Shown here piece by piece: positions 27,616 to 34,176 of a DNA stretch of 34,316 bases. Below the pieces are notes generated by a model. It had not been told where the DNA came from and searched no databases. It saw only the letters and a program-made list of their open reading frames with translations. The stretch spans positions 1 to 34,316 of the forward strand of contig JAFATZ010000012.1 in NCBI GenBank assembly GCA_019243675.1, given 5' to 3'. Made by a program: the position numbers and the translations under genes. The stretch comes from Ktedonobacteraceae bacterium. GTDB taxonomy: Bacteria > Chloroflexota > Ktedonobacteria > Ktedonobacterales > Ktedonobacteraceae. Position 1 is the first letter of the stretch. Each line of letters begins with the position of its first letter.

Positions 27616-28872
27616 ATGGTACTATCTGCTTTCACCATCTCATCCCGTTCTGATCGTTGGACCCGTTGGGTTATCGCCATTGCAGCCCTCCTTATGCAGC
27701 TTGCCCTCGGTTCAATCTATGCCTGGAGTGTTTTCCTCCGTCCAGTCATGCTCCAATACCACAGTTCAGAGCCAGCAGCTAATCTCACCTTCAGCCTTGT
27801 GCAGCTTGTGTTAGGCATTACCGCTGGGTTTGGGGGTTACCTCAATAGCCGCTTTGGCCCACGCCTCATTGCCACAGTAGGTGGCATACTCTACGGTCTA
27901 GGCGTTTTGCTGGCTGCACTTGCAGCTCCTCATTTGCTCATTCTGTATCTGACCTATGGTATTCTTGGAGGCATCGGCATTGGCCTAGGCTATATTGTAG
28001 CTCTCGCCATGCTGCTCAAATGGTTCCCTGATCACCGAGGCTTCATTACTGGTCTGGCTGTTGCTGGCTTTGGAGGAGGAGCTCTGATTACCGGGCCACT
28101 GGCGGCCTCCTTGATCAAGTGGGTTGGCTTGGGGCATACCTTCGTCTGGCTGGGTCTAGGCTACCTTGTAGTTATTGTTGTAGTAGCGCAGTGCTTCCGT
28201 ACAGCTCCAGAAGGCTATGCCCCCGCCGGCTGGACACCCCCGACTCGCCAACAGTCGGGGCCATTACGTGAATATACCTTGACAGAAGCCTTGCGTCGGC
28301 GCAGATGGTATGTGCTCTGGCTGATGCTCGCCTTGAATGTAACGGCTGGAGCAGCCTTGATCTCGGTAGCTTCTCCTTTGGCACAGCAGTTCACTAATGT
28401 TGGGGTCTTGACTGCAGCCCTTATTGTCAGCGTCATTGCGCTGTTCAATGCGGCAGGGCGTCTCTTCTGGGGCTGGCTCTCCGATGGCATTGGTCGGCCC
28501 TCGGCCTTCTTGAGCATGTTCGTACTACAAATGATCGTCTTCGCGCTCATACCTTCGATTACCAGTTTTGCACTCTTGCTCGTTCCAGCAGCCATTGTAG
28601 GATTGTGTGCAGGTGGTGGATTTGGCACGATGCCAGCTTTCGCCGCTGATGTGTTTGGCTCAAAGCACGCGGGCACGATCTACGGCGTGATGTTGACAGC
28701 TTGGAGTGCTGGTGGGATTGTGGGGCCCCTGTTAATTGCTAGCTTACCATATAAGACGGCACTCTATATCATCGCGTTGATCATGCTGCTGAGCACTGTC
28801 TTACCACTACTGACACGTTCACTTGTACCCATGCGTAGCGTAGTAGAAATGGGGGAGGCCACAGTAAGCTAA
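27616..28872 (+). CDS. MFS transporter, oxalate:formate antiporter (OFA) family
   Basis: The 418-residue protein has 12 predicted membrane helices with the OFA opening RWVIAIAALLMQLALGSIYAWSVF. It also has LTFSLVQLVLGITAGFGGYL, GLGYIVALAMLLKWFPDHRG and, in the second half, NAAGRLFWGWLSDGIGR. This family exchanges or imports small carboxylates such as oxalate, formate or pyruvate. The formate dehydrogenase operon lies immediately downstream on the same strand, so formate or oxalate is the likely substrate, although the family also includes other substrates. A GGGGTG ribosome binding site precedes the ATG. Confidence 0.88.
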   Translation: MVLSAFTISSRSDRWTRWVIAIAALLMQLALGSIYAWSVFLRPVMLQYHSSEPAANLTFSLVQLVLGITAGFGGYLNSRFGPRLIATVGGILYGLGVLLAALAAPHLLILYLTYGILGGIGIGLGYIVALAMLLKWFPDHRGFITGLAVAGFGGGALITGPLAASLIKWVGLGHTFVWLGLGYLVVIVVVAQCFRTAPEGYAPAGWTPPTRQQSGPLREYTLTEALRRRRWYVLWLMLALNVTAGAALISVASPLAQQFTNVGVLTAALIVSVIALFNAAGRLFWGWLSDGIGRPSAFLSMFVLQMIVFALIPSITSFALLLVPAAIVGLCAGGGFGTMPAFAADVFGSKHAGTIYGVMLTAWSAGGIVGPLLIASLPYKTALYIIALIMLLSTVLPLLTRSLVPMRSVVEMGEATVS

Positions 28873-28892: not shown

Positions 28893-28952
28893 CTTAGAAA
28901 ATGTCAGATCGCGGCGGCCCAAAAAGGCCGCCGCGATCTGACATTTTCTAAG
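28893..28952 (+). terminator. 27-bp perfect stem hairpin, probable terminator
   Basis: Bases 28893-28919 pair perfectly with 28926-28952, leaving a 6-nt CAAAAA loop. The stem has a GC-rich top and an A/T base (AGAAAAT / ATTTTCT), so T residues lie within the 3' arm rather than after it. It begins 20 nt after the transporter stop and separates it from the formate dehydrogenase operon. Confidence 0.75.
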
Positions 28953-29075: not shown

Positions 29076-32000
29076 ATGCAAAAAGAGCAGATATCCTTGT
29101 CTCAAACCATTATATCACAGATGATGCAGATAGGTTCTAGTGTACAGCCATTCAGCAAAGAGAGCCGTGAGAAAACCTCCCGTATTCACAATGCGAAAGT
29201 TGTGCATAGTGTTTGTCCCTACTGCGCGGTGGGATGCAGTTTGGATGTCTACGTCAAGGACGGCAGGGTGATTGATATCGAAGGCAATGCTGACAGCCCC
29301 ATCAATCGTGGAACGCTCTGCCCCAAGGGTTCAGCCACATTCCAATATACAGTCAATCCCAGTCGCTTAACCCAAGTCCTCTACCGGGCACCCTATAGCG
29401 ATCACTGGGAAGTCAAATCGCTCGACTGGGCAGTCGAGCAGATTGCACAACGCGTCAAAAAGACACGGGACGAGACCTTTGTGCAAAGCTTGCCTGATGG
29501 GCGTGAGGTCAATCATACCCTGGGCATCGCTACCTTGGGTGGGGCAACACTAGACATCGAAGAGAACTATGTGATAAAAAAACTCTTCAGCGGTGGTCTG
29601 GGCGTTGTCTCAATTGAGAATCAGGCCCGTATATGACACAGCTCCACTGTACCCGGTCTGGGTACATCATTGGGGCGTGGTGGTGCTACTACATTTCCGC
29701 AAGACCTGGTCAATAGCGAGGCTATCTTGATTATGGGTAGCAATATGGCCGAGGCTCATCCGGTGGCCTTTGCTAATGTCGTCAAAGCGAAGGAACGGGG
29801 AGCGAAGGTGATTCATGTAGACCCACACTACTCGCGCACATCAGCTTTAGCCAATCTGCACATTCCTATACGCGCAGGCAGCGATATTGTGTTCCTAGGA
29901 GCGATTATTCGCTATTTGCTTGAGAACAACGCTTACTTCCATGACTATGTGTTGCATTACACAAATGCAGCTACCTTGATTCGAGAAGACTACCGTGACA
30001 GCGAAGATTTAGATGGGCTATTCTCTGGCTTTGACCCTGAAACAGGTGTTTACAGTGATCAGAGCAGTTGGGACTACCAACGCGACGCTAATGGACAGCC
30101 ATTGACCGACCCCAGCATGCAGCATCCGCGCTGTGTGTTACAGATTCTGCGTCGCCACTTTGCACGCTACACTCCTGAAATGGTTGAGCATGTATGTGGA
30201 GTGCCACACGAACAATGGGCGCAAGTCATGGATACGCTCATCGAGAATTCGGGACGCGAACGTACTACTGCCTTGTGTTATGCTGTGGGCTGGACTCAGC
30301 AATCCAAGGGTGTACAGATTATCCGTGCTGGGACTATTGTGCAACTCTTACTCGGCAATATTGGCCGCCCTGGTGGGGGAATTATGGCCTTGCGTGGCCA
30401 TGCCTCAATCCAGGGTTCGACAGATGTGCCGACGCTCTATGATCTGCTGTCCGGCTATATGCCACAGCCGAGTGCGCAGTTGCCGCAACAGACGCTGGCC
30501 CAATACATCGCCACGGCAGGCCAAAAAACAGGCTGGTGGTCCCATTTGCCCGTCTATATACGCAGTTTGCTCAAGGCATGGTATGGCAAAGCCGCCGATG
30601 AGCAAGACGGCAATTGTAGCTATCGCTGGCTTCCCAAAATCACTGGCGACCATTCGCACTTGGTGACCAGCTATGCCATGCTTGATGGGAAGGTACGTGG
30701 CTACTTCCTCTTTGGGCAAAATCCTGCCGCTGGCAGTAGCAGTGCACGCATGCAGCGCAAAGCTCTAGAGCAGTTGGACTGGCTGGTCGTTCGTGATCTC
30801 TATGAGGTTGAGTCAGCGGCATTCTGGTACAAAGGACCACATGGAGACGCAGTTGACCCAAGCAAGATCAAAACTGAGGTCTTCCTCTTACCTGCTGCTG
30901 CCTCGACGGAAAAAGAGGGCAGTTTCACCAATACCCAGCGCGTGATACAATGGCGAGACAAGGCAGTCGATCCGCCCGCTGATGCTCGCTCAGACCTGTG
31001 GTTCGTCTACCACCTTGGCAAACGCTTGAAAGAACTGTATGCTACAAGTAGAAAACGCCAGGATCAAGCATTGCTGGCATTGACCTGGGATTACCAGCGA
31101 GAAGAGCCAGAGACAAACTCATATATACTCGATGAGCCAGATGCCCTGCTCGTGTTGAAAGAGATCAACGGCTACTATGTACATCCATCTGCTCACACCA
31201 TTGGGCGACGACCTACATATACACTGCGGGATGCGCCACATATAGCAGGATTTGCGGCACTCAAAGCCGATGGGAGTACAGCTTGTGGTTCGTGGATCTA
31301 CAGCGGTGTCTATCCAGAACCTGGTAATAATCGTGCAGCGTCACGTATTGCCGCTGGCTATCCTCCCTTACAGTGGGGGTATGCCTGGCCTGCCAACCGC
31401 CGTATCCTCTATAATCGCGCCTCGGCTGACCCACAAGGCCGTCCATGGTCGGATCGCAAGAAGTATATCTGGTGGGATGAGCAACAAAAGCAATGGACAG
31501 GCTATGACGTACCGGATTTTCCACTGAGCAAGGCACCTGACTACATACCACCACCAGGAGCAACAGGCATGGATGCCATTTCCGGTAACAGCCCATTTAT
31601 CATGCAACCTGACGGCAAAGGCTGGCTCTTTGCTCCTAAAGGGCTAAAAGATGGTCCGCTTCCCACACACTATGAAGCAGTGGAGTCTCCAGTTCACAAT
31701 GCCATGTATCACCAGCAGAGTAATCCCACTGCTAAGTACTTCAAAGATCGACCAGATAATCGTCTTGTGACAGTAGCCGATGCAAATTATCCGATTGTGA
31801 TTACGACCTATCGGCTCACTGAACACCATGTCAGTGGAGCAATGACACGTTGGCTGCCCTGGCTCAACGCTCTGCAACCGACACTTTTTGCCGAACTCAG
31901 TCCAGAACTGGCAACAGAGCGCAAGATCAAGCATGGAGACTGGATAGTCATTAGCACCCCTCGCGGCGAAATTGAAGCACGAGCAATGGTGACACGGCGT

Positions 32001-32186
32001 GTACGCCCACTACGTATCAACGAGCATGTGGTACACCAAATTGGGCTGCCATTCCATTGGGGGTTCCAGGGAAAAGCTACGGGCAGTATTACCAATGATC
32101 TGGCACACACCGTACTAGAGCCAAATGTGAGTATTCAAGAGGCTAAAGCGTTTATGTGTAACGTGCGCTCAGGACGCCTAGCCTGA
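29076..32186 (+). CDS. fdnG: Formate dehydrogenase catalytic subunit, selenocysteine-containing (FdnG-type)
   Basis: This is one 1036-residue gene read through an in-frame UGA at 29634-29636 (Sec187). The context ENQARI-U-HSSTVPGLG matches the Sec position of FdnG/FdoG, and the second part continues in the same frame with GRGGATTF. The N-terminal [4Fe-4S] site uses C47, C50, C54 and C82 (CPYCAVGC and LCPKG). The molybdopterin domains include GSNMAEAHPVAFAN, YAVGWTQQSKGVQIIRAGTI and RGHASIQGSTD. The end has the molydopterin-dinucleotide-binding YRLTEHHVSGAMTRW and GLPFHWGFQGKATGSITND. It oxidises formate to CO2 and passes electrons to FdnH. E. coli FdnG carries a Tat signal; this N-terminus has none. 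AAGGA precedes the ATG. Confidence 0.95.
29637..29676 (+). promoter_or_regulatory. Bacterial SECIS element
   Basis: Directly after the UGA, a 6-bp perfect upper stem (29649-29654 with 29660-29665) carries the loop GGTCT at 29655-29659. A lower stem pairs 29641-29645 with 29672-29676. The loop starts exactly 18 nt after the UGA. Loop sequence and distance are, as I recall them, the same as in the E. coli fdhF SECIS bound by SelB. Confidence 0.9.
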
Positions 32187-32202: not shown

Positions 32203-33084
32203 ATGATAGTTGAAACTTCGCAACGTACAACCTCCCCAGAACTAGTGCAAAATATAGTATCGCCACTGCTCAAACAGCCAGTACCACCGATGCAGCCAGC
32301 TATGGGTTTTTTTACCGATACTAGTATCTGTATCGGCTGCAAAGCCTGCGAGGTAGCCTGTAAGCAGTGGAACGAGCTTCCTGCTAACGAGGCTCATTGG
32401 AGCGGTACAAGCTACGACAACACGCGTCAGTTGAGCGCGACTACCTGGCGACACGTACAGTTTATAGAACAGATTGGACGCGAGCGACCACAGATTTCAA
32501 CATTGCCCTTCTTCAACAATGACCGTTGGTTGATGCACAGCGACGTATGTAAGCACTGTGCAAACGCACCATGCCAAGAGGCTTGCCCTACGGGAGCGAT
32601 TATCCGCACTGAATTCGACACGGTCTACGTGCAGCAAGATATCTGCAACGGCTGCGGCTATTGTGTTGTGGCCTGCCCCTTCGGAGTGATCGCTCGCGAT
32701 GAGCATGCCAGCCACACGGCACGCAAATGCACGCTGTGTTATGACCGGATGAAAGATGGTATAGAGCCTGCCTGCGCCAAAGCATGCCCTACCGACTCGA
32801 TTCAATATGGCGAAGTAGAACAACTCAAAGCGCTTGCACGTGAACGCGTTGGACTCTTGCATGAGCGTGGTGTGAGCGAAGCTCGTCTCTACGGTGTAGA
32901 CGACAACATGCTTGATGGTGGCCTCAATTCTTTTTTTCTTTTGCTAGACGAGCCAGCCGTGTATAATTTGCCGCAGAATCCGTCACGCCCCTCAAACAAT
33001 GTTGTCCCAGCGTCGTTGTGGTCAATTGTCACGGCCCTAGTGCTAAGCTTGCTGGGCATATTCTTTTTCAGTAATAACAAATAA
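32203..33084 (+). CDS. fdnH: Formate dehydrogenase iron-sulfur subunit (FdnH-type)
   Basis: The 293-residue protein carries four ferredoxin-type [4Fe-4S] sites. The first is C43/C46/C49/C53 (CIGCKACEVACKQW). CKHCANAPCQEACPTGAI, CNGCGYCVVACPFGVI and CTLCYDRMKDG...CAKACPTDSI follow. A C-terminal membrane helix (about 265-288, SLWSIVTALVLSLLGIFFF) anchors it, as in E. coli FdnH, which is almost the same length. It conducts electrons from the catalytic subunit to the membrane subunit. It begins 16 nt after fdnG and lies 30 nt before the NrfD-type gene, so the three form one operon. Confidence 0.95.
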   Translation: MIVETSQRTTSPELVQNIVSPLLKQPVPPMQPAMGFFTDTSICIGCKACEVACKQWNELPANEAHWSGTSYDNTRQLSATTWRHVQFIEQIGRERPQISTLPFFNNDRWLMHSDVCKHCANAPCQEACPTGAIIRTEFDTVYVQQDICNGCGYCVVACPFGVIARDEHASHTARKCTLCYDRMKDGIEPACAKACPTDSIQYGEVEQLKALARERVGLLHERGVSEARLYGVDDNMLDGGLNSFFLLLDEPAVYNLPQNPSRPSNNVVPASLWSIVTALVLSLLGIFFFSNNK

Positions 33085-33114
33085 AATTTACTAAGTTTAT
33101 AGGAAGGATTGCCA

Positions 33115-34176
33115 ATGCAGCAAATTCGTCTTCCCCAGGCTATCGTAGAGCGTCTTACGCCCACCCAAATTGCCGAGCAATTAGCAACGCTTACTACAGG
33201 TTATACGCCAGACCCAGAGCAGGAACTGCGAGAATCTACCTACTATGACCTGCCTGTTCTAAAGGCTCCTGTCTGGCATTGGGAGATTATCTGGTATTTC
33301 TTTTTTGGTGGATTAGCTGCCGGTTGCTATCTCCTTGCCAGTATCGCTGCTCTTTTTGGCTCACGTGAAGATCGCATCGTGGCTCGCACTGGCTATTATC
33401 TCTCATTGCTGGCATTGCTGCCTTGCCCACCCCTGCTCATCAAAGATCTGGGGCGACCTGAGCGATTCTTGCATATGTTGCGCATGTTCAAAGTGCGCTC
33501 TCCGATGTCAATGGGCGTGTGGGCAGTAATGAGCTTCTCATTCTTTAGTGGACTTACCACACTCATTCAAGCAGCCAGAGATGGTCTGTTGGGGCATGCA
33601 AGAGGAGTGAGATGGCTTGCCTTGCTTCCTCAATCATGGCTAGCGCTCCCTGGAAGCGCGGTAGCACTACTGCTTGGTAGTTATACAGGTGTGCTGTTAA
33701 CGGCAACTAGCATTCCTCTTTGGTCACGCAGTAAACTCTTAGGTGGGATATTTCTTACGTCTGCCGTCTCCACTAGTATAGCTTTGATCTCCTTTGTACT
33801 GCGCCTAGTGCGTACACCCCTCGGTACATTGCACAAGCTAGAGCGTTTAGAGTGGAGCGTGCTTCTGCTTGAGATGTTAGGTCTGCTTGCCTTTTTGCGT
33901 GCTTCTGGTCGCGCCGCCCGTCCCTTGGTAGGCACGGCACCGACTGAGCACGGCACGACGTTCTGGCGCTTCGTTTTCGGGACTGGACTAGCGCTCCCGT
34001 GGCTGCTGCAAACTCTGTCCCTATTGACAAAGCGTAGCCCACAAAGACGTTTCCCTGGCCTACTCATCTCGCTGCTCGTACTGCTAGGTGGCTACTTCTT
34101 GCGACGTACAATGGTTGAGGCAGGACATACATCGAGCCAGGATGCACGCACTACCCTGTGGAATGCTCAAAGCTAG
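33115..34176 (+). CDS. NrfD/PsrC-type membrane subunit of formate dehydrogenase
   Basis: The ATG at 33115 is chosen because AGGAAGG lies 7 nt before it. TTG 33109 is too close to that site. The 353-residue protein has a hydrophilic N-terminus followed by about eight or nine membrane helices. It carries the NrfD signatures WEIIWYFFFGGLAAGCYLLA and IKDLGRPERFLHMLRMFKVR followed by SPMSMGVW. NrfD/PsrC proteins bind quinone or quinol and lack heme. This replaces the cytochrome b (FdnI) of E. coli-type enzymes, so the complex would hand electrons to quinone without b hemes. It is the last gene of the operon. Confidence 0.9.
   Translation: MQQIRLPQAIVERLTPTQIAEQLATLTTGYTPDPEQELRESTYYDLPVLKAPVWHWEIIWYFFFGGLAAGCYLLASIAALFGSREDRIVARTGYYLSLLALLPCPPLLIKDLGRPERFLHMLRMFKVRSPMSMGVWAVMSFSFFSGLTTLIQAARDGLLGHARGVRWLALLPQSWLALPGSAVALLLGSYTGVLLTATSIPLWSRSKLLGGIFLTSAVSTSIALISFVLRLVRTPLGTLHKLERLEWSVLLLEMLGLLAFLRASGRAARPLVGTAPTEHGTTFWRFVFGTGLALPWLLQTLSLLTKRSPQRRFPGLLISLLVLLGGYFLRRTMVEAGHTSSQDARTTLWNAQS

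Follow-up and report, generated by a model that had tools for sequence, protein, structure and literature searches.

A formate dehydrogenase gene in the window (the whole 34,316-nt stretch of Ktedonobacteraceae DNA analyzed here) is interrupted by an in-frame TGA, which raises the question of whether the gene is broken or encodes a selenoprotein. As a preliminary description of this DNA had claimed, the ORF listing of the window contains two ORFs in the same frame that are parted by the TGA: one at 29076–29636 (+), which encodes 186 aa and terminates in TGA, and one at 29670–32186 (+), which encodes 838 aa counted from a TTG. The TGA at 29634–29636 is codon 187 of a 1036-codon fdhA. When it is read as selenocysteine (Sec), one 1036-aa product is obtained, and the true stop is the TGA at 32184–32186. 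On the sequence evidence, fdhA is almost certainly a selenoprotein gene, in which UGA 29634–29636 encodes Sec187 as the active-site metal ligand. This reading, a Sec formate dehydrogenase with its UGA recoded via a bacterial SECIS, was the core claim of the preliminary description and is upheld by homology, by the conserved TGA, by hairpin covariation, by loss of the hairpin in Cys and Ser homologues, and by selB, tRNA-Sec and selA, which the genome also carries. The features concerned are as follows.

29076–32186, + strand: fdhA, formate dehydrogenase alpha subunit (molybdopterin/4Fe-4S), 1036 aa with predicted Sec187 (NF041513, TIGR01553, 1h0h, 1kqf)
29634–29636, + strand: in-frame TGA, predicted selenocysteine 187 (aligns with the Sec of 1h0h; TGA at 66 homologous sites)
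29648–29666, + strand: predicted bacterial SECIS hairpin, 7-bp stem, loop GGUCU (folding, relatives, covariation)

The read-through FdhA matches formate dehydrogenase alpha families over its full length and above the curated cut-offs, with 1488 bits against NF041513 (formate dehydrogenase; cut-off 1400) and 1020 bits against TIGR01553 (FDH-N alpha; cut-off 814). Among solved structures, D. gigas 1h0h, Desulfovibrio Sec-FDH and E. coli FdnG (1kqf) are the closest. The alignment printed for 1h0h sets the TGA codon of fdhA opposite the letter X, the Sec residue of that structure, which places the codon at the Sec position of known formate dehydrogenases, as had been proposed. The local motif UHSS fits, apart from the P, the UHxP pattern listed for Sec formate dehydrogenase alpha, and FdhA is described as the selenoprotein family with the broadest distribution in bacteria (PMC13188914). 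In a comparison with the same-genus gene, third codon positions account for 32 of the 51 nucleotide differences before the TGA and for 186 of the 265 after it. This bias on both sides of the TGA indicates that the region 3´ of it is under coding selection.

A search of 151 genomes with the read-through protein yielded a match in 72, and the codon with its following sequence (57 nt in all) was read at 71 homologous sites. The codon is TGA at 66 sites, Cys at three, Ser at one and TTA at one, proportions that do not represent a random sample because the sites were picked from matches, many since TGA was reported. The TTA (L028 3464–3466, relative G002) was excluded as a probable edge error, about 6 bases from the contig end. 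The 66 TGA sites comprise 62 distinct sequences, which span families of the phylum and include one-contig genomes. The distance of the loop from the TGA is constant in all 62, and the loop is GGTCT in 52, AGTTT in seven, AGTCT in two and GGGCT in one. A GGUCU hairpin is absent from the equivalent place in the four Cys or Ser homologues (three Cys, one Ser).

The hairpin stem UGUACCC/GGGUACA is formed by 29648–29654 and 29660–29666 around the loop GGUCU (29655–29659), and the portion conserved in relatives comprises 6 bp (29649–29654 with 29660–29665). A stem-loop starting 18 nt after the UGA had been described; the hairpin is real, but it is the loop that begins at 18 nt, whereas the stem begins at 11 nt. 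Folding of 29634–29680, a check proposed in the same description, produces the hairpin at −21.9 kcal/mol (z = −3.1), with 2 of 200 shuffles equally good. The sequence CCCGGTCTGGG occurs once in the window, compared with 0.01 expected. Of 5000 synonymous recodings that leave the peptide unchanged, 224 fold the 24-nt hairpin core equally well or better, and scanning the window against Rfam at gathering scores returned no match. The bacterial SECIS model (PMC13188914) specifies a loop of 3–9 nt with G within its first two positions, a stem of 4–16 bp, a UGA-to-loop distance of 16–37 nt and an MFE of at most −7.5; the window hairpin conforms to it with its 5-nt loop GGUCU, 7-bp stem, 18-nt distance and core energy of −9.7 to −10.5 kcal/mol. 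Folding by itself is weak evidence for the hairpin; the comparative evidence is strong.

Each of the six stem pairs is standard in 58 to 61 of the 62 distinct TGA sequences. Across 22 diverse sequences, 91.7% of the cells of the 6-bp stem are paired (80.0% shuffled), 11 cells are altered on both sides (2.3 shuffled) and the covariation is 0.398 (0.168 shuffled), and none of 500 shuffles attains the observed pairing, double-change or covariation values. The shuffle control disregards relatedness; the slid control, which retains it, gives 30–49% paired when the stem is moved along the alignment of these sequences. The compensatory changes are synonymous and located at wobble positions: the third base of Val (GUA/GUG/GUU/GUC) covaries with the third base of Gly, and Pro CCC/CCG pairs with Leu CUG/CUC, with the combination of Pro CCG and Leu CTC in the second paralogue. 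They show clearly, in a natural case, how RNA structure is kept within a coding sequence. A second such alpha gene in the source genome (L082 3913–4809, contig C350), which is ended by the contig end, also contains an in-frame TGA, and its hairpin is closed by CCG/CGG, not CCC/GGG.

In E. coli (NC_000913), the loops of fdhF, fdnG and fdoG are located at positions 22–26 counted from the U of UGA, with a U at position 17. The fdhF element has the loop GGTCT at a distance from the UGA identical to that of the window hairpin, as the preliminary description had stated. E. coli FdnG, FdoG and FdhF and the window have in common the Sec at the equivalent position, the UGA-CAC context, a Val codon that supplies U17 and the loop (G/A)GUCU at 22–26. 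Both U17 and G23 are reported to be needed by E. coli SelB (PMC8659212). The window hairpin has G23 and U24 of the fdhF-type SECIS but lacks the bulged U17: in the predicted folds, U17 is bulged in E. coli fdhF, fdnG and fdoG, whereas in the window it faces A31, its predicted partner, within a continuous helix. In the minimum-energy fold of fdhF, the unpaired base may be U18, the neighbor of U17. Position 31 is A in 36, G in 23, T in two and C in one of 62 relatives. The conservation of U17 alone says little, since U17 is the middle base of a Val codon that does not vary. As folded in these predictions, the window hairpin agrees with the general model for bacterial SECIS elements (PMC13188914) but departs from the narrower E. 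coli model. The fdhF-like loop and distance had been taken to imply a SelB of conventional specificity, which does not follow, because U17 is predicted inside a continuous helix. It is conceivable, if rather doubtful, that the SelB of this lineage reads a SECIS with U17 in an unbroken helix through contacts that differ from those of E. coli SelB. If so, E. coli would be expected to use window-type elements inefficiently unless U17 were released from pairing.

The source genome is a MAG of 475 contigs, 83% complete with 4.5% contamination. When it was searched for selA, selB, selD and tRNA-Sec, as had been suggested, selB, tRNA-Sec and a partial selA were recovered, but selD was not. SelB (652 aa, contig C435, 379 bits joined) carries SelB-wing_2 and wing_3 domains, tRNA-Sec (contig C417) has 99 nt, the anticodon TCA and a score of 65.3 bits, and SelA (310 bits) reaches profile position 241, where contig C227 ends. 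The SelD profile search of this 83%-complete MAG gave nothing above the 125-bit cut-off; the best match, of 45.6 bits (contig C196), covers the central part of the profile only and was not accepted as selD. The Sec-gene contigs share 83–91% DNA identity with a same-genus genome (G001), compared with 88% for the window. Since they resemble that genome as closely as the window does, misbinning of the Sec genes is unlikely and was rejected.

The same-genus genome G001, which is 99% complete, contains selB, tRNA-Sec, selA and selD. A tRNA-Sec is found in 28 of the 29 Ktedonobacteraceae genomes, and the figure is 28 for selA and for selD as well. Among 151 sampled relatives, SelB is above cut-off in 120. 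Sec decoding is near-universal in the Ktedonobacteraceae, contrary to the view that Sec use is patchy in Chloroflexota. As a family, they appear to decode UGA as selenocysteine and to carry one or two Sec formate dehydrogenases, and selenium supply should therefore bear on their formate metabolism. Extra tRNA-Sec matches of ~50–52 bits, only slightly above the gathering score (in G018, G022, G027 and G032), were rejected as second genes; ARAGORN identifies these loci (L142, L143, L144 and L145) as tRNA-Leu or tRNA-Ser, which indicates that the RF01852 gathering cut-off is unspecific near 50 bits. The selD of G001 (L089, G001:C256:9966-10892) has an in-frame TGA within the motif CAGUASK. This agrees with UxxK, the motif given for Sec SelD (PMC13188914), and SelD is thus itself a predicted selenoprotein there. 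Its predicted hairpin has a different loop at ~33 nt, farther than in fdhA, so that one SelB would need to accept two loop types.

Table 11 splits the frame and the genome is a fragmented MAG, both of which would suit a TGA that arose in a Cys codon by nonsense mutation or assembly error and left fdhA a pseudogene. Such an origin is extremely improbable: the TGA recurs with a covarying hairpin at 66 homologous sites in different families of the phylum, one-contig genomes included, the third-position bias is seen on either side of the TGA, and selB and tRNA-Sec are present. Production of two polypeptides (186 aa, and 838 aa from TTG 29670) that are assembled without Sec has in its favor the in-frame TTG 33 nt past the TGA. 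However, a start there would fall just past the conserved hairpin, neither piece would contain the active-site residue or the HSSTVPGLGTS stretch, and the Cys homologues are single continuous proteins; we give this arrangement next to no credence.

The failure to find selD in the 83%-complete MAG would accord with a UGA that is read as Cys or Trp through suppression or an altered code. In contrast, TGA also serves as a terminator, including the stop of fdhA itself, tRNA-Sec, SelA and SelB are present, and the hairpin is tied to the TGA, all of which make this decoding very improbable. The points against UGA as Sec are the SelD not found in that MAG, the partial SelA, the U17 bulge absent from the predicted fold and the Rfam null result.

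With UGA 29634–29636 as a Sec codon, it would be read in translation by Sec-tRNA-Sec (anticodon UCA), which SelA would make from Ser-tRNA-Sec with selenophosphate supplied by SelD. SelB would deliver the Sec-tRNA-Sec, presumably binding the hairpin 29648–29666 via its C-terminal winged-helix domains. The product would be the alpha subunit of a molybdenum- or tungsten-dependent formate dehydrogenase with Sec187 as the metal ligand. The selenium-containing FdhA would act alongside FdhB and the NrfD-type anchor, and the formate electrons probably go to the quinone pool.

The operon has the order alpha, iron-sulphur beta, NrfD anchor, and its other genes and upstream neighbors are as follows.

32203–33084, + strand: fdhB, beta subunit with ferredoxin-type 4Fe-4S domains and a single hydrophobic helix at its C-terminus (domain matches)
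33109–34176, + strand: NrfD/PsrC-type membrane anchor subunit (PF03916, 115 bits)
27616–28872, + strand: MFS carrier of the L-lactate / oxalate-formate antiporter group, upstream of fdhA (NF049980, 401 bits)
28900–28945, + strand: 20-bp perfect inverted repeat with the 6-nt loop CAAAAA, followed by T-rich DNA (read from the sequence)

FdhA shows no twin-arginine pair ahead of its first cysteine motif, CPYC, which suggests that FdhA is located on the cytoplasmic side. The lack of this RR and the NrfD identity of the third gene set the operon apart from FDH-N (FdnGHI), which is characterized by a Tat signal on alpha and an FdnI-type gamma subunit, the anchor type of E. coli. The Desulfovibrio Sec formate dehydrogenases (1h0h, 6sdr) are the best solved relatives, and 1h0h aligns over nearly its whole chain (E = 3e-234). 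They are soluble alpha-beta enzymes, whereas an NrfD anchor gene follows in the window operon.

The formate dehydrogenase of Thermomicrobium roseum (WP_143714751.1) shares 54% protein identity with the window FdhA and has the TGA, the hairpin CCCGGTCTGGG and the alpha-FeS-NrfD order of the window; it differs in having fdhE two genes past nrfD, while the window is without fdhE. In the RefSeq record, the T. roseum homologue is a single CDS of 3186 bp running across the TGA, and the gene type is therefore already known and annotated. The suggestion that it is under-annotated holds for a bare ORF caller, but not for that record. The locus introduces no new principle, being a Sec formate dehydrogenase with a standard SECIS in a family whose members as a rule decode Sec, and it makes a clear annotation case of an apparently broken gene that is, on this reading, a normal selenoprotein gene.

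The 28900–28945 repeat, which separates the carrier gene from fdhA, is probably a terminator; a terminator scan of the window did not list it. The MFS carrier gene adjoins fdhA in the same-genus genome too, and a functional link between the two is possible.
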